Assembly (NCBI GenBank): GCA_002371695.1
Contig: DFGG01000007.1
Location: 1-7,741 of the forward strand
Length of the DNA stretch: 7,741 nt
DNA from: a bacterium UBA3756
GTDB lineage: Bacteria > Bacteroidota > Bacteroidia > Bacteroidales > Bacteroidaceae
Direction: 5' to 3'
Part shown: one piece after another, positions 1-6,382 of the stretch
Layout: every line of letters starts with the position of its first letter
Numbering within the stretch: position 1 is the stretch's first letter
The notes under the pieces: model-generated
What the model was told of the DNA's origin: nothing
Databases searched by the model: none
What the model saw: only the letters and a program-made list of their open reading frames with translations
Translations under genes and position numbers: made by a program

Positions 1-10
1 AGATTTGAGG

Positions 11-49
11 AGATTGAGAGATTGAGAGATTGAGAGATTGAGAGATTGA
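11..49. repeat. 8-bp tandem repeat, unit AGATTGAG, about 4.9 copies
   Basis: Four perfect copies of AGATTGAG (11-42) are followed by a seventh-eighths copy (43-49). A degenerate copy with an extra T precedes it at 1-8. The array lies in the leader of the HTCS-like gene and ends 19 bp before its ATG. Each unit contains TGA and the period is not a multiple of three, so the array closes all three forward frames and is not translated through. Its start may lie to the left of the window. Confidence 0.95.
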
Positions 50-68
50 ACATTGAAGATTGGACTTT

Positions 69-3000
69 ATGAGGAATATAAAGAAAATAATCATCGCACT
101 GATGCTCATGCTGCCGCTGGTAGTGGTGGCAGACTATCTGTTTAAGACATTGGACGCGCGCGACGGACTGACCAGCAGCCAGATCAACTGCATCATGAAA
201 GACTCGCGCGGATTTATGTGGTTCGGTACCCCTGCCGGACTATACCGTTACGATGGCTATGTGTTCAAGAACTTCCAGAGCGACTCGCAAGACGGCTCAT
301 CGCTGCCCAACAGCTACATCAACTCCATACAGGAGACACTCGACGGCAACCTGCTCATAGAGACCGCCTCGGGCTACTGTATCTACCACCCGCAGACAGA
401 AACCTTCGAGCGCGACATGAAGCAATACTTCGCCAGCATGGGCATTGAGACCATCCCGAGCATCGTCTATGTGGACCGTCACAAGAATCTGTGGGCAGCC
501 ATCCCTAACAAAGGCGTGATCTGTTTCAACATGCAGCAGCAGGGAACCTATGAGTTCGGCTATACCGACGATGCACACGGCGTGCCACAAGGCGTCATCT
601 GCTCCATCAGCGAGTGTAAAGACGGTGCCATACTGGTATATGACGACGGACGGCTGGTATGCTGCGACGTGATGCACCAGCAGCACACGGTATGGGCCAG
701 CAACGAGATAGCCACACGCAAACTGCGCCACTCCAAGTCGCTCAAGGCGTTTGCCGACCAGATGGACAACATCTGGCTCTACGGACAGGGCACACTCTTC
801 AAATACAACAAAAGCGCTGATCAGTGGGATACATCCATCGGCGACCGCCTGGGACTGACGAGCATCGGCGTGGACCGCAACATCAACGGGATGGCCGGTG
901 ACCGTAGCGGCAACATCTGGATCGGATCAGACCAGATGGGACTCTTGTGCTACGACGTGAACACGCATGAGATAGAATCCGTACACCCGCGCAACATCAA
1001 CGACCGCCAACTGTTCAAGGACGTGATCAGCATACAGAGCGTCTACGTGGACGACACAGACCTGCTCTGGGTGGGTACCGAGAAGTCGGGCATCGCCTAT
1101 TCAGGCAAGTATATCTACCGATTCGGTTCGGAACTCAACGGCGACATCACAGCCATTGCACAGGCCGACAGCGGAAAGGTGTGGTACGGCACGAGCGACA
1201 AGGGCGTGATCGGGTACAACGGACCACTCTCCAGCCTCAAGGTCTCGGCTATGGCATTTACCAGCGACGGAAGCCTGTGGGTGGGTTCGAAGCGCAACGG
1301 ACTGACGCGCATCAAGAACGGCACGTCGACCATCTACTCACAAGCCAAGGACAGTCTGAACAAGACACTGATAGACGACCATATCAACGATCTCTGTACA
1401 GACAAGATCGGCAACCTCTGGATAGCCACCAACGGTGGACTGCAGGTGTACAACTCCAGAATGAACTCATTCTCGACCTACACGCGAGAGAACGGAAAGC
1501 TGAACACCAACAACGTGACCTGTCTGTCGTACAACAAAGACAACAAGGCCAACAACCTGTTTATCGGAACGGCTGAGGGACTGGTGATCCTGAACCTATC
1601 CAACACGGAGAAGAAAGTGCTGACAGGAAACTCAACGAACATCAAGACCTTCACCAACCACTATATCACGCAGGTGATGCAAGACTCTCGCGGACTCATC
1701 TGGATAGGTACCCGTGAAGGACTGAACATCCTGAACCTGGACAACGACAATCTGGACTATATCACCGAGAAGCAGGGACTCTGCAACAACAACATCTGCG
1801 GCATTGCAGAAGACAAGAACCACAATATCTGGGTAACCACCAGCAGCGGTGTCTGCCGCATAGTCATCCAGCGTAACCACGAGGACGGCTCCAACAACTA
1901 CGGTCTGTACAACTACACCACAGCTGACGGTCTGCAGAGCAACGAGTTCAACCCCGGAGCCATTCTGACTCGCAAGGACGGTAATGTGCTGCTGGGTGGT
2001 CTGTTTGGCGTGAACTGGGTGCTGCAGAAGGGCAACGACGACAATGAGTCACTGCCCCGCGTGATGCTCACCCAGCTGTTCATTGGTGAGGAGGAAATCA
2101 TCACGGGACATGAATACGGAGGAAAGGTGGTGCTGTCGCAAGCCCTCAACGAAACTTCGCGATTAGACCTGAGCCACGACCAGAATACCTTCACCATCAA
2201 GTTTGGTGCAGGCAACTACAACCAGAGCGAGCGCCTGCAGTTCATGTACTGGATGGAAGGACTCGACGATGACTGGCGCAACGGTAACGCACTCACCCAC
2301 GGTGTGACCTTCCACGACCTTGGCAGTGGCAAATATACCCTGCACGTGAAGGCCGTCAGTGCAGAAGGCGCCCTCAGCAATCAGGAGCGCACGCTGGTCA
2401 TCAGTGTGCAGCGGCACTGGCTGCTCTCCTGGTGGATGATCATGGCCTACATCATCATCGCCGCTGTGGTCATCTACTTCTGGCGGATTGGCATGAAGCA
2501 GATCAAGGCAATCAGGAACCGGAAGAATGCCATCATCGCGGAGCTCATCAAACAGCGCGAAGAGATCAAGGCAGCCAGCGACGACCTGCGTCAGCCCATG
2601 GCTCGCATGACCTCCATCATCGGCAACCTCTCGGAGAAGGAGAAAAGTCTCGAGGAACGCGAGCAGCTGAACGCCCTCCACTCACAGATGCTGCAAGTGA
2701 TCACCCGCGTCAGCGACATGCAGACCAGTCTGGAGCACCCGGAGGAGAAAGCCAAGAACGCGGTACACGACCGCCTGGATCTGAACGGAAAGGGAGAAAT
2801 AGAACTGCCTGACCTGGGCGACACTCTCACCACAGAGCGCTCTATCTCAAGAGCAGCCCTTGACGCCCCGACGATGAAATTCTCGGTGGTGATGATTGAC
2901 GACAACGAGGATCTCCTGAAGTTTGCCACTACCAGGCTAAAGTATGTCTACAACTTCCATGCCTATAACGACATCATGAAGGCTGCCTCTGACATCGAGG

Positions 3001-3875
3001 AGATGCAGCCCGACCTGGTGATTTGCAAACAGAACATGCAAGGCATGACAGGCAGTGAGCTGTGCAACCACCTGAAGACAACAGAAGTGACGCAGAAGGT
3101 CAAATTCGTATTGATGACAGAGGGCGTGCTGACTCCTCACGACATGCGTACGCAGAACATTACCCTCTCTGCTGACGACTACCTGTCGAAGCCCTTCAAC
3201 CTGCAGGATGCCGTCACACGATTCAACAAGGTGCTTGGCCTAGGTCCCATCGAAATGAACAGCAATCTCATCGAAGGTGCTGAGACCCGTATGCTCGAGA
3301 ACCAGAATGCCAGTATGACAACTGCCACCGAGAGTTACAGCAACGACAATACGCGCATATCTACGACAGACCAAGTATCAGACGACGACCCCATCAACCT
3401 GGTGGATATACAGATCAAGAAAAAGCAGACGGTACAGGCCAATGAAGGTGGTGTGGTCACAGAAGGCGTGCCCACGGTGTCAGACAAGGAAAACGGCGAA
3501 GTCGAGGAGACGGCCACCCTAAGTGACTACTCGATGCTCGACGCGATGGATCAGCAGCTAATGAAGAACATCGAGCAATACGTGATGCAGAACATGAGTC
3601 GCGGACAAATCAGTCTCGAGGAGATGGCTACAGCAATGGGTATGGGACGTGTACCCTTCTTCCACAGGGTACGGACGCTGACAGGCAAGACGCCAGCAGA
3701 ACTGGTGCGCGACCTGCGACTGAAGCACTCCTGCATCCTCCTGAAACGTACGAATATCAATATGAGTGAGTTGGCTACGAACGTAGGCTTCCTGACTGCC
3801 GAGAACTATATCACGATCTTCAAGGAGAAATTCGGCATGACACCGCTCGAGTACAGACTGAAGCACAGGAAATAG
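69..3875 (+). CDS. HTCS-like sensor/AraC regulator with degenerate kinase and receiver
   Basis: This is a 1268-residue membrane-spanning transcription regulator with HTCS architecture. Numbering is from the ATG at 69; an in-frame TTG at 60 is possible, but the ATG places the signal peptide directly at the N-terminus. Order: signal peptide (about 1-21), roughly 14 propeller blades (about 34-655; recurring D-x-x-G-x-[IL]-W-[IV]-G-T), consistent with two seven-bladed propellers; Y_Y_Y domain (about 703-783); one membrane helix (about 785-805); paired helices resembling a DHp domain (about 821-889); receiver (about 937-1055); acidic Ser/Thr/Glu-rich linker (about 1060-1150); AraC-type double HTH (about 1165-1265, ending TPLEYR). 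The H-box reads SDDLRQP instead of SHELRTP (Asp838 for His), no ATPase domain follows, and Lys987 replaces the receiver's phospho-acceptor Asp. The acidic pair Asp944/Asp945, Thr1017 and Lys1041 remain. The frame is open throughout, so it is not an obvious pseudogene. The family normally senses periplasmic glycans; ligand and targets here are unknown. Confidence 0.93.
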   Translation: MRNIKKIIIALMLMLPLVVVADYLFKTLDARDGLTSSQINCIMKDSRGFMWFGTPAGLYRYDGYVFKNFQSDSQDGSSLPNSYINSIQETLDGNLLIETASGYCIYHPQTETFERDMKQYFASMGIETIPSIVYVDRHKNLWAAIPNKGVICFNMQQQGTYEFGYTDDAHGVPQGVICSISECKDGAILVYDDGRLVCCDVMHQQHTVWASNEIATRKLRHSKSLKAFADQMDNIWLYGQGTLFKYNKSADQWDTSIGDRLGLTSIGVDRNINGMAGDRSGNIWIGSDQMGLLCYDVNTHEIESVHPRNINDRQLFKDVISIQSVYVDDTDLLWVGTEKSGIAYSGKYIYRFGSELNGDITAIAQADSGKVWYGTSDKGVIGYNGPLSSLKVSAMAFTSDGSLWVGSKRNGLTRIKNGTSTIYSQAKDSLNKTLIDDHINDLCTDKIGNLWIATNGGLQVYNSRMNSFSTYTRENGKLNTNNVTCLSYNKDNKANNLFIGTAEGLVILNLSNTEKKVLTGNSTNIKTFTNHYITQVMQDSRGLIWIGTREGLNILNLDNDNLDYITEKQGLCNNNICGIAEDKNHNIWVTTSSGVCRIVIQRNHEDGSNNYGLYNYTTADGLQSNEFNPGAILTRKDGNVLLGGLFGVNWVLQKGNDDNESLPRVMLTQLFIGEEEIITGHEYGGKVVLSQALNETSRLDLSHDQNTFTIKFGAGNYNQSERLQFMYWMEGLDDDWRNGNALTHGVTFHDLGSGKYTLHVKAVSAEGALSNQERTLVISVQRHWLLSWWMIMAYIIIAAVVIYFWRIGMKQIKAIRNRKNAIIAELIKQREEIKAASDDLRQPMARMTSIIGNLSEKEKSLEEREQLNALHSQMLQVITRVSDMQTSLEHPEEKAKNAVHDRLDLNGKGEIELPDLGDTLTTERSISRAALDAPTMKFSVVMIDDNEDLLKFATTRLKYVYNFHAYNDIMKAASDIEEMQPDLVICKQNMQGMTGSELCNHLKTTEVTQKVKFVLMTEGVLTPHDMRTQNITLSADDYLSKPFNLQDAVTRFNKVLGLGPIEMNSNLIEGAETRMLENQNASMTTATESYSNDNTRISTTDQVSDDDPINLVDIQIKKKQTVQANEGGVVTEGVPTVSDKENGEVEETATLSDYSMLDAMDQQLMKNIEQYVMQNMSRGQISLEEMATAMGMGRVPFFHRVRTLTGKTPAELVRDLRLKHSCILLKRTNINMSELATNVGFLTAENYITIFKEKFGMTPLEYRLKHRK

Positions 3876-3925: not shown

Positions 3926-5170
3926 ATGAACAGTTTTCAAGGATATTTATTAAGGACAACACTGACAGTACTATTTGCTATACACTATTCACTATTCACT
4001 ACAAACGCCCAGACCAGCGACTCGCTGATTGTGCGGCAGATGAGAGAACTGGGCGTCAGATTCACCGACGACAACAAGGTGAGGCTTATCATGTCTGGAC
4101 GCGACAAGTTCGAACTGATGTTCGAGGATATCCGCAATGCCCGGCAGAGCGTTCACCTGGAGTATTTCAATTTCCGCAATGACTCCATCGCCTCGCTGCT
4201 CTTCGACATCCTGCGAGAGAAATGCAAGGAGGGCGTGGAAGTGAGAGCCATGTTCGACGGTTTCGGCAACGACTCCAACAACCAGCCGTTGAAGAAGCAC
4301 CACCTCGAGAAGCTGCGGGCCGACGGCATCAATATCATAGAATACGACCCCATCCGCTTCCCATGGGTCAACCATATCTGGCCCCGTGACCACCGTAAAA
4401 TAGTAGTCATCGACGGCAAGATTGCCTATACGGGAGGCATGAACGTGGCCGACTACTACGTCGTGGGCTCCGAGCTGGTGGGCGAATGGCGCGATATGCA
4501 CTGTAGGCTCGAGGGACCTGTGGTCAACGACTTGCAGACCATCTTCGCACGCATGTGGAGGAGGAACACTGGCGAGGACCTCTCCGCCTCGAAATACTAT
4601 CAAGGCGTCCCGGCAGGCCACAAGATGATCGGCATCATCAACCGCGAGCCAAGGGTGATGAATCAGTATATGCAGAAGTTCTATATACAAGCCATCGACG
4701 ACGCCCGCGACTCCATTAAGATCATCAATGCCTACATGACACTCACCCCAGCGTCGTGGAAGGCTCTGAAGCGAGCCATCGACCGCGGAGTGAAGGTTGA
4801 GATCATGGTGTCACAAAAGTACGACGTCAAGCTGACGCCCGACGTTGTGCTCCGCAACGTTCACAAGCTAATGAAGCGCGGTGCAAGCGTATGGCTCTAC
4901 CAGCCTGGCTTCCACCACTCCAAGATCATGATGGTCGACGGACGCTTCTGCACGGTGGGCAGTGCCAACCTCGATGCCCGCGGTTTGCGTTTTGACTTTG
5001 AAGAGAATGCCCTCATCATAGACCGTGAGACCACCCTCGAACTTGACGCGATGTTTGAACGCGACAAGCAGAAGAGCAACAAGTTGACGGATGAGGAGTG
5101 GGAACGCATCCGAACGCCCTGGCAGAAGTTCCGCGGATGGTTCGGCAGTCTGCTCACACCACTGATTTAA
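3926..5170 (+). CDS. Exported phospholipase D / cardiolipin synthase-like protein
   Basis: This 414-residue protein belongs to the phospholipase D superfamily, whose members transfer or hydrolyse phosphatidyl groups through a histidine intermediate. Two complete HxK(x)4D motifs are present: His156/Lys158/Asp163, followed by GKIAYTGGMN, and His331/Lys333/Asp338, followed by GSANLD. Both closely match bacterial cardiolipin synthases, so it should be catalytically competent. It lacks the usual paired N-terminal membrane helices of Cls (about 480 residues). Instead it has a signal peptide (1-28) with a probable cut at TNA|Q, suggesting periplasmic location. The ATG at 3926 was chosen over the in-frame TTG at 3902 because it follows an A-rich AAAAAAGAG leader and gives a conventional signal peptide. 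It lies 50 bp after the regulator gene and 3 bp before the acyltransferase gene. A cardiolipin synthase is the leading assignment; another phosphatidyltransferase or a secreted phospholipase is possible. Confidence 0.9.
   Translation: MNSFQGYLLRTTLTVLFAIHYSLFTTNAQTSDSLIVRQMRELGVRFTDDNKVRLIMSGRDKFELMFEDIRNARQSVHLEYFNFRNDSIASLLFDILREKCKEGVEVRAMFDGFGNDSNNQPLKKHHLEKLRADGINIIEYDPIRFPWVNHIWPRDHRKIVVIDGKIAYTGGMNVADYYVVGSELVGEWRDMHCRLEGPVVNDLQTIFARMWRRNTGEDLSASKYYQGVPAGHKMIGIINREPRVMNQYMQKFYIQAIDDARDSIKIINAYMTLTPASWKALKRAIDRGVKVEIMVSQKYDVKLTPDVVLRNVHKLMKRGASVWLYQPGFHHSKIMMVDGRFCTVGSANLDARGLRFDFEENALIIDRETTLELDAMFERDKQKSNKLTDEEWERIRTPWQKFRGWFGSLLTPLI
3983..4001. repeat. 7-bp tandem repeat CACTATT inside the signal-peptide coding region
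   Basis: The unit CACTATT is present in two full copies and one five-base copy. It encodes the IHYSLFT stretch in the hydrophobic core of the phospholipase-D-like signal peptide. The period of seven is not a multiple of three, so gain or loss of a single unit would shift the frame near the start of the gene. Confidence 0.85.
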
Positions 5171-5173
5171 GAT

Positions 5174-5190
5174 GTGAAGAGAGTGAAGAG
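5174..5190. repeat. 9-bp direct repeat at the acyltransferase start
   Basis: GTGAAGAGA is followed directly by GTGAAGAG. The two copies supply two in-frame GTG codons (5174 and 5183) and encode the N-terminal residues KRVKR. The repeat makes the true start ambiguous by three residues. Confidence 0.7.
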
Positions 5191-6382
5191 GGACACAACC
5201 ATATCCATCGCCAAGGGCATCGCAATCATCCTGATGGTCATCGCACATGCCGAAGCCCCCGGATGGCTGTGCAAGTTCATCTTCGAATTCCACATGCCAC
5301 TCTTCTTCATGACGGCAGGATACTTCTTTTCACTCAAATATCTTAACGATGAAGCCACCTTTATCAAGAAACGCATCAAAGGGCTCTACTGGCCCTTCTG
5401 GAAATGGTCGGTATTCTTCCTGATCATACACAACTGGATGTTTGACTTAGGGGTGCTCAATGAAGTCTACGGCAACGAGATGGGAGGCGTGACGCATCCA
5501 TACTCATGGCACGCCATACAACAGAATCTGTGGAACATCACAACTGCCATGGGAGGATACGACCAATTCCTCTGCGGAGCCTTCTGGTTCTTCCGAGGTC
5601 TCTTTGTTGCCAGTATCCTATACCTTATTATATATAAGGCTGTCGATGCAGGATTATCCAGATTAGCCGGTTTTTGCAGAATACCCGGATTTTCCGGATT
5701 TTTCGGATTTTCTGGATTATCAGGAAGAACAATCACCCCCTACCTCATCTGCCTGATCATGCTTCTGCTCTGCGGGTGGAAGACCTATGAAGGCCTGAAG
5801 GTCGTCAACCTGGTGCAGGGTGGATATCGCGACATGATGGGCTGTTTCTTCTTCGGGTGCGGATTCATCTTCAGACAGATGGTCGACAAGTATCAGCAAT
5901 TCATCTCCCGCTACTATGCCTCCGTCTGGACTACACTACTGTTTGCCGTCATCGTCTATTTCTTCTCATATTACCTGACGGCCAACATGAACTGGCGCTC
6001 CAACTTCACGCAATTTCTCTCACTGCCGTTGCCTGCCCTGCTGGGATTCCTGATGACCTACAACATCAGCCGATGGATAGACAGCCATGAAAATTGCCTG
6101 AAACGTTTCCTGGTGTATACCGGCGACCACACCCTCAACATCTTTATCTTCCACATCGTGGCCTACAAGACAGTGAGTCTGCTCAAAATCTGGTATTATG
6201 GCCTCGACCCAAGACAGATAGGTTGCCACATGGTAATCCACGAGCACTCTCAGGAGGATCTCTTCTGGATACTCTACACCATTGCAGGCGTAGGGCTCCC
6301 ATTAGCAGCCACTTGGTTGAGCGAAAGGGGAAGGTCTAAATTCAGAGAATATAAAGCATCAGCTGCATCTCAGCCTCAGTGA
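5174..6382 (+). CDS. Acyltransferase-3 family integral membrane protein
   Basis: This 402-residue multi-pass protein resembles the acyltransferase-3 family (fucose-4-O-acetylase/NolL-like group), which moves acyl groups from the cytoplasm to surface sugars or lipids. Supporting features are the N-terminal block SIAKGIAIILMVIAHA with His25, the FEFHMPLFFMTAGYFF block with His40, FWFFRGLF near 137-144, and a C-terminal GDHTLNIFIFHIVAYK block. About ten hydrophobic segments are visible. The start must be GTG: the preceding in-frame codons are GAT and the TAA of the upstream gene, and the next ATG at 5234 would cut into the conserved first helix. GTG at 5183 is the alternative. No Shine-Dalgarno site is visible, and the 3-bp gap suggests translational coupling to the phospholipase-D-like gene. 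Residues 160-183 are an in-frame repeat of Gly-(Phe/Leu)-Ser-like triplets in a loop between membrane segments. The substrate cannot be told from sequence. Confidence 0.85.
   Translation: MKRVKRDTTISIAKGIAIILMVIAHAEAPGWLCKFIFEFHMPLFFMTAGYFFSLKYLNDEATFIKKRIKGLYWPFWKWSVFFLIIHNWMFDLGVLNEVYGNEMGGVTHPYSWHAIQQNLWNITTAMGGYDQFLCGAFWFFRGLFVASILYLIIYKAVDAGLSRLAGFCRIPGFSGFFGFSGLSGRTITPYLICLIMLLLCGWKTYEGLKVVNLVQGGYRDMMGCFFFGCGFIFRQMVDKYQQFISRYYASVWTTLLFAVIVYFFSYYLTANMNWRSNFTQFLSLPLPALLGFLMTYNISRWIDSHENCLKRFLVYTGDHTLNIFIFHIVAYKTVSLLKIWYYGLDPRQIGCHMVIHEHSQEDLFWILYTIAGVGLPLAATWLSERGRSKFREYKASAASQPQ
5651..5722. repeat. 9-bp in-frame tandem repeat, eight units, consensus GGATTTTCC
   Basis: Eight consecutive 9-bp units are recognisable. 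The last four (5687-5722) are near-identical GGATTTTCC variants and the first four are diverged (GGATTATCC, AGATTAGCC, GGTTTTTGC, AGAATACCC). In the acyltransferase frame they encode GLS-RLA-GFC-RIP-GFS-GFF-GFS-GLS. Because nine is a multiple of three, changes in copy number keep the frame. The complementary strand reads as an Asn-Pro-rich repeat in one frame, which is a by-product of the same array. Confidence 0.9.

Follow-up and report, generated by a model that had tools for sequence, protein, structure and literature searches.

The 7,741-nucleotide stretch analysed here (the window; contig DFGG01000007.1 of assembly GCA_002371695.1, from the Bacteroidaceae bacterium UBA3756) encodes a membrane-spanning regulator of hybrid two-component system (HTCS) architecture that is kept by selection and is incapable of the native phosphorelay. 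Its derivation from an HTCS, together with the absence of phosphorelay through the native sites, is well supported, and many Prevotella, including rumen ones, carry this kinase-free regulator. We propose, with moderate confidence, that it acts as a phosphate-independent, HTCS-derived transmembrane one-component transcription regulator with a pseudo-receiver. The gene is a single open reading frame (ORF; 60-3875, plus strand) of 1271 residues counted from TTG60, with ATG69 as a possible alternative start. Pfam found a propeller sensor, a Y_Y_Y domain and an AraC-type output combined in this single chain.

A first-pass annotation, made from the letters of the window, had read Asp in place of the phospho-accepting His at the H-box and Lys in place of the acceptor Asp in the receiver, had seen no ATPase domain and had estimated about 130 residues between the membrane helix and the receiver. 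All four readings held. The H-box reads SDDLRQP with the Asp codon exactly at 2580-2582, the receiver stretch P984-M996 reads PDLVICKQNMQGM with the AAA codon for Lys exactly at 3027-3029, and approximately 130 residues separate the membrane helix (about 791-812) from the receiver (943 onwards). Only the residue numbers, Asp838 and Lys987, depend on the start: they fit a count from ATG69 and become D841 and K990 from TTG60. The domain-profile search proposed in the same annotation gave no match to HATPase_c in the window regulator at E values up to 1 (Pfam), a HisKA match under the Pfam cut-off, and a Response_reg match of 51.9 bits against a cut-off of 30.2.

These losses hold throughout the sampled family. 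When one genome was scanned for each species, 253 relatives emerged, and the 80 best were retained as loci; their titles name Prevotella, Prevotellaceae, Xylanibacter, Bacteroidales or an uncultured bacterium, and many isolate names are of the rumen type. The H-box residue was Asp in 65 loci and Glu in 15, and the acceptor position was Lys in 80/80. None of the 80 had either the His or the Asp, whose retention in orthologues the first-pass annotation had regarded as the mark of a local decaying allele. Likewise, the 120 proteins listed of 1600 found carried Asp (74) or Glu (46) at the H-box and Lys at the acceptor position without exception. The receiver positions D947, T1020 and K1044 were each kept in 80/80 loci. 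Among 63 members scanned with Pfam, Response_reg and HTH_18 were present in every one and HATPase_c in none at E values up to 0.005, all nine families found being shown, and HisKA matched 41 at E values up to 0.1 and 10 at 0.005. The region following the membrane helix aligns with canonical dimerization and histidine phosphotransfer (DHp) domains. As a control, we chose 33 canonical HTCSs, including 20 from the Prevotella/Xylanibacter genomes G001-G004, all four of which carry the gene, and His and Asp were both kept in 33/33. Since no sampled member departs from these residue states while canonical HTCSs keep His and Asp, the changes at the H-box and the acceptor position are not due to chance. 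With no His at the H-box and a Lys acceptor, neither native site is able to carry phosphate.

A further departure concerns the S/CHIP motif, which is described in the available text of PMC11253607 as restraining the DNA-binding domain until phosphorylation; according to the same text, deviation in this motif may accommodate phosphorylation-free regulation. At its Pro column, in the α3-β4 loop, Lys was found in 11/11 K-type rows (those with Lys as acceptor residue), and Pro in 33/33 canonical and 5/5 E-type rows (those with Glu). The window regulator reads QKVK at this motif.

The first-pass annotation had also argued against simple decay, and the family bears it out. One open frame spans the matched length in each of the 80 loci. 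Ratios of non-synonymous to synonymous substitution rates (dN/dS) were calculated pairwise by NG86 for 122 pairs above 84% identity and kept when dS was usable, which left 83-100 pairs depending on the region. The median was 0.048 overall, far below one, and by region 0.044 for the propeller, 0.033 for the DHp-like region, 0.038 for the receiver, 0.125 for the linker and 0.018 for the helix-turn-helix (HTH) domain. The DHp-like and receiver domains are thus constrained as strongly as the sensor. In the DHp-like region, 36/93 positions have the same residue in 80 or all of 81 sequences, and the window differs from its 99% relative L020 by 42 synonymous and 6 non-synonymous substitutions. Table 1 collects the features of the regulator and of the following gene.

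Table 1. Features of the kinase-less regulator and the adjoining gene, in window coordinates
Feature	Position	Strand	Basis or remark
HTCS-derived kinase-less transmembrane regulator	60..3875	+	ORF and Pfam domains
N-terminal hydrophobic segment, signal or anchor	60..134	+	judged by eye on the sequence
Reg_prop beta-propeller sensor, presumed periplasmic	135..2204	+	residues 26-715, approximate; Pfam E 8.3e-33
Y_Y_Y domain	2214..2408	+	residues 719-783; Pfam E 5.5e-9
Transmembrane helix	2430..2495	+	about residues 791-812, by eye; part of a continuous model helix
DHp-like helical hairpin without phospho-His	2496..2774	+	residues 813-905; sub-threshold HisKA; model
Degenerate H-box SDDLRQP (S840-P846)	2577..2597	+	Asp841 codon 2580-2582 replaces His
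Pseudo-receiver	2886..3221	+	residues 943-1054; Pfam Response_reg and modelled receiver fold
Acidic pair D947 D948	2898..2903	+	D947 80/80, D948 56/80 loci
Lys990 at phospho-acceptor position	3027..3029	+	80/80 loci
Lys1015 at Pro position of S/CHIP contact motif	3102..3104	+	alignment with canonical rows
Thr1020, conserved receiver T	3117..3119	+	80/80 loci
Lys1044, conserved receiver K	3189..3191	+	80/80 loci
Linker signature IEGxETRxLExx[NS]xSMTT[AS][TS]	3270..3329	+	residues 1071-1090, inside hypervariable linker
AraC-type HTH_18 DNA-binding domain	3624..3857	+	residues 1189-1266; Pfam E 2.5e-14
cls, cardiolipin synthase-like	3926..5170	+	TIGR04265 279 bits, under cut-off 290; next gene in 80/80 loci

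The structure model contains a helical hairpin (model helices 3-75 and 80-108) with a predicted local distance difference test score (pLDDT) mostly above 80, and a complete receiver fold of good local confidence; the VIA-align rows fall mainly on the receiver (model 155-279). The linker motif at residues 1071-1090 is almost fixed in the 80 loci, with the core positions at 80/80, inside the fastest-changing region measured, and it is modelled as disordered with low pLDDT. A binding or recognition peptide is a natural guess for its function.

The regulator gene lies between kdsD and cls in 80/80 loci. The kdsA gene is present in 78/80, and the two exceptions, L003 and L044, begin at a contig end. 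Other neighbours are a tetratricopeptide repeat gene (77 of the 80 loci), a lipoprotein gene (76), an MscS-like channel gene (63), an upstream BadF-like gene (54) and an acyltransferase-like gene (47). Within L020, KdsA scored 357 bits with TIGR01362 against the NCBIfam cut-off of 314; KdsD scored 318 against 204 with TIGR00393 (KpsF/GutQ sugar-phosphate isomerase) and fell under the stricter KdsD model, and the MscS and BadF matches were under their cut-offs, the latter that of Pfam. At window positions 5174-6382, a predicted membrane protein looks acyltransferase-like by eye and has its counterpart in 47/80 loci; it had no NCBIfam match at E values up to 0.01. The neighbourhood is one of envelope synthesis (3-deoxy-D-manno-octulosonate, KDO, and cardiolipin), not a glycan-use locus. 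A Bacteroidetes-type promoter pattern stands directly ahead of kdsA in 41/78 loci, a count that was not set against chance expectation and depends on the stretch searched (29/78 in one, 41/78 in the other), and it was found in 0/80 of the kdsD-regulator or regulator-cls gaps. The short gaps, together with the pattern occurring ahead of kdsA and not in the gaps around the regulator, suggest one operon. Tandem AGATTGAG-like repeats occupy window positions 1-60, directly ahead of the regulator start, and similar ATTGAARG repeats precede kdsA in L020.

In the genus of one carrier, 79/200 genomes matched the regulator, including a contig-end fragment (G720) and a split match (G737). Twenty-one genomes without a regulator match were searched, 17 of this carrier genus and four of the genus that includes G077. 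A cls-like match turned up in 19, and 18 of these regions were compared, G593 being left out as cut at a contig end. The order kdsA-kdsD-cls was kept in 17/18, with a kdsD-cls gap of approximately 14-204 nt in 13 and approximately 1.6 kb in four, all from the G077 genus. In L142 the cls match is broken in two, and around the cls of L139 there are no kds genes. Because kdsA-kdsD-cls is kept without the regulator, the gene shows presence or absence at one place.

The E type, a sister of the K type, was found by a deeper search in 2/6 sampled genomes of one genus (G077 and G094), and also in five protein clusters that ranked highest among 120 listed and lacked HATPase_c; these clusters have Glu (4) or Gln (1) at the H-box and Glu at the acceptor position (5/5). 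In L089 the E-type gene is flanked by mutS2 on one side and a XylE-like sugar transporter gene on the other, and a cls-like gene comes next. The K and E types cluster together, with a support of 99 in the Shimodaira-Hasegawa-like approximate likelihood ratio test (SH-aLRT) of the sensor tree and 100/98 in the receiver and HTH tree, and in both trees this group falls beside canonical HTCSs of the SHELRTP kind. All trees were midpoint-rooted, for drawing only, and the derivation from an HTCS therefore leans also on how widespread canonical HTCSs are. The S/CHIP His is already missing in 10/12 canonical proteins of the SHELRTP kind (12 taken of 115 listed), which suggests that the restraint loosened first and the kinase was lost thereafter. 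Replacement of a canonical HTCS in place was considered and is not supported: in G009 the close canonical paralogue lies at C1:226694 and the regulator at C1:1571861-1575817. None of six sampled canonical HTCS regions had kdsA, kdsD or cls within 19-19.5 kb. An order-level search with query A1 matched 8/393 genomes; only the matches in G001 and G009 cover the DHp-like and receiver part, and the other six cover the DNA-binding end only, as canonical HTCSs do. Across 26 aligned members the recognition-helix region, GMGRVPFF, hardly varies, and it differs from that of the canonical rows.

Searching with the E type uncovered a wider series of dismantled relatives. The query matched 30/251 genomes of the family, and two candidates were scored per genome, so that the counts are lower bounds. 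The matching protein was examined in 18 of the 30; the other 12 have frames of 1360-1416 residues, as expected of canonical HTCSs. The 18 comprised five K, two E, one Asp, seven Ser, two stripped and one receiver-less form with a kinase. The Asp form, L196, keeps the acceptor Asp without DHp or ATPase domain, and a cls-like gene adjoins it. The seven Ser-acceptor relatives (L199-L205, Ser in 7/7) had no Pfam match to HisKA or HATPase_c in 7/7 proteins, and Response_reg failed to reach its cut-off in six and was absent from the list for L205, which indicates strongly degenerate receivers. Beside L199 and L200 lie ackA- and pta-like genes, named by eye, and a BadF-like gene is near L200, L202, L203 and L205. 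In the two stripped proteins (L197:6139-9423, minus strand, and L198:7869-11147, plus strand; approximately 1095 residues), HisKA, ATPase and receiver are all gone and only the propeller, the membrane helix, an acidic linker and HTH_18 are retained; the related cluster P0294 has 2110 members. Conversely, L192:1480-5448 (plus strand) keeps HisKA and HATPase_c with a linker in place of the receiver, and cluster P0341 of the same kind has 13641 members. A linker peptide of about the form QRAxxIQLxE...THxVPPExLP recurs in L192, L197, L198, P0320, P0326 and P0346, which are receiver-less or kinase-less, and in P0326 it precedes the receiver.

The D, S, E and K types formed one group in the sensor tree (97/96) when the long-branched canonical rows can_L151, can_L165, can_L147 and can_L164 were dropped; keeping them gave an SH-aLRT of 96. 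The receiver and HTH tree neither showed nor rejected this wider kinase-less clade (40% of 200 bootstrap trees; approximately unbiased (AU) test, p 0.49). The receiver-less types sit on a separate branch of the sensor tree, so dismantling happened at least twice. That Bacteroidaceae repeatedly turned HTCSs phosphate-free, by loss of the kinase in one clade and of the receiver and then the kinase in another, is a reading we regard as evenly poised.

How could a regulator without phosphotransfer work? We infer signalling by conformation, a K990-D947 bond and regulation of the kds-cls genes. The periplasmic propeller would sense a ligand or stress and alter the dimer geometry, a picture shaped by the 'scissor' model of HTCS sensors. 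The predicted DHp-like hairpin, a putative dimer scaffold, would carry this change across to a receiver that may be held in a single state by Lys990, probably bonded to Asp947. The receiver would be a rigid adaptor, not a switch, and this transmission would set the spacing of the two DNA-binding domains on the target DNA, so that the signal probably passes to DNA by shape alone. The simplest target would be the promoter ahead of kdsA, by which the operon would regulate itself.

Several other explanations have to be weighed against this mechanism. In regulated proteolysis, the linker motif at 1071-1090 would be a recognition or cutting site and the signal would free the AraC domain from the membrane. 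A near-invariant motif within a fast-changing, disordered linker is what a recognition peptide would look like; however, this would leave little for the DHp-like and receiver domains to do, yet they are constrained like the sensor, no protease gene was recognised among the neighbours, and the distant K-type L091 retains the motif only in part. The motif could just as well be a contact site for the receiver, the DNA-binding domain or RNA polymerase, and we consider proteolysis unlikely. Slightly less likely still is a kinase or phosphodonor acting in trans on another residue, or a kinase borrowed from a paired canonical HTCS. The four carrier genomes do hold canonical HTCSs, and D947, T1020 and K1044 are kept; but the native sites lack the His and have a Lys acceptor and cannot carry phosphate, and the first acidic residue and the K are usually kept in Asp-less receivers too, as the available text of PMC4395418 describes.

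The sensor and output folds shared with canonical HTCSs, as well as the presence in G009 of a K-type protein plus a close canonical paralogue, would fit a decoy that dampens a canonical HTCS through mixed dimers or occupation of its DNA sites. The near-invariant GMGRVPFF, unlike the canonical region, points instead to a DNA site of its own (the L186 copy differs), and the constant neighbours kdsD and cls are not HTCS targets, which leaves the decoy somewhat less probable again. The simultaneous loss of three catalytic features, and two broken copies among the relatives (G737 and G094), might suggest ordinary decay or an assembly error. This is very improbable: at the family level, intact frames in 80/80 loci, substitutions fixed across many species and a dN/dS of approximately 0.05 refute decay and rule out a local allele.

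Some observations weigh against a conserved, phosphate-independent regulator. No match was found in 121/200 sampled genomes of the carrier genus, some of them possibly incomplete, so the regulator looks dispensable at the genus scale. In G737, one of the 79 genomes that matched, the match falls in two separate frames, and the E-type copy L090 of G094 has an in-frame TAG; an assembly error is possible in both. Since L196 retains the acceptor Asp within the kinase-less clade, phosphate may still matter there, and the regulator might be phosphorylated or acetylated at other sites or rely on a partner kinase. Among the more distant K-type proteins, L186 departs in the recognition-helix region and L091, as noted above, in the linker motif, and the predicted template modelling score (pTM) of the model is only 0.34.

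The window regulator resembles the HTCSs of Bacteroides in its propeller, Y_Y_Y domain, membrane helix, apparently DHp-homologous helices, receiver fold and AraC-type output. Unlike them, it lacks the His, the ATPase domain, the acceptor Asp (replaced by Lys) and the S/CHIP Pro, and it adjoins kds-cls, in 80/80 loci, instead of glycan-use genes. The closest precedent for the lost His is the B. thetaiotaomicron HTCS BT4236, in which Gln takes its place and for which the authors suggest a phosphorylation-independent mechanism in the available text of PMC11253607; this is a single protein, compared at the His site by description only. With known pseudo-receivers it shares a receiver fold without the phospho-Asp in which the first acidic residue, T and K are kept, as far as the available texts describe them (PMC4395418, PMC12632262), but here the pseudo-receiver is part of a membrane sensor whose DHp-like region is degenerate. 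According to the same partial sources, basic residues (Arg, Lys and His together) make up 4% of the Asp substitutions in aspartate-less receivers (PMC4395418), the Asp is missing in 2.0% of receivers and the His in 0.9% of HisKA domains, and the activation or inactivation of bacterial pseudo-receivers is called a mystery (PMC12632262). SusR, of a kind separate from HTCSs, is a transcriptional activator that binds periplasmic maltose, as stated in the available text of PMC3878776; in comparison with that description, the window regulator differs in its HTCS-derived sensor, hairpin and receiver. Pseudo-receivers and SusR-like regulators are thus already known; no description of a kinase-stripped HTCS clade appeared among the listings from the open-licence PubMed Central (PMC) papers searched. 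The family-wide fixation, the kds-cls neighbourhood and the wider kinase-less relatives lay beyond the sight of the first-pass annotation.

If the dismantled forms work, a conformational signal alone suffices in the HTCS architecture and the receiver is optional. The relatives form a natural series, with Asp, Ser, Glu or Lys at the acceptor position, with or without the DHp helices and finally without a receiver, all with homologous sensors and outputs, which makes it testable whether the HTCS phosphorelay is needed for the signal or only modulates it. It also means that HTCS numbers can be misleading when only the sensor and output domains are counted. For Prevotella, the protein is a candidate for the control of KDO and cardiolipin synthesis, and if the proposed mechanism is true, the Lys form would couple the synthesis of both to an envelope signal.

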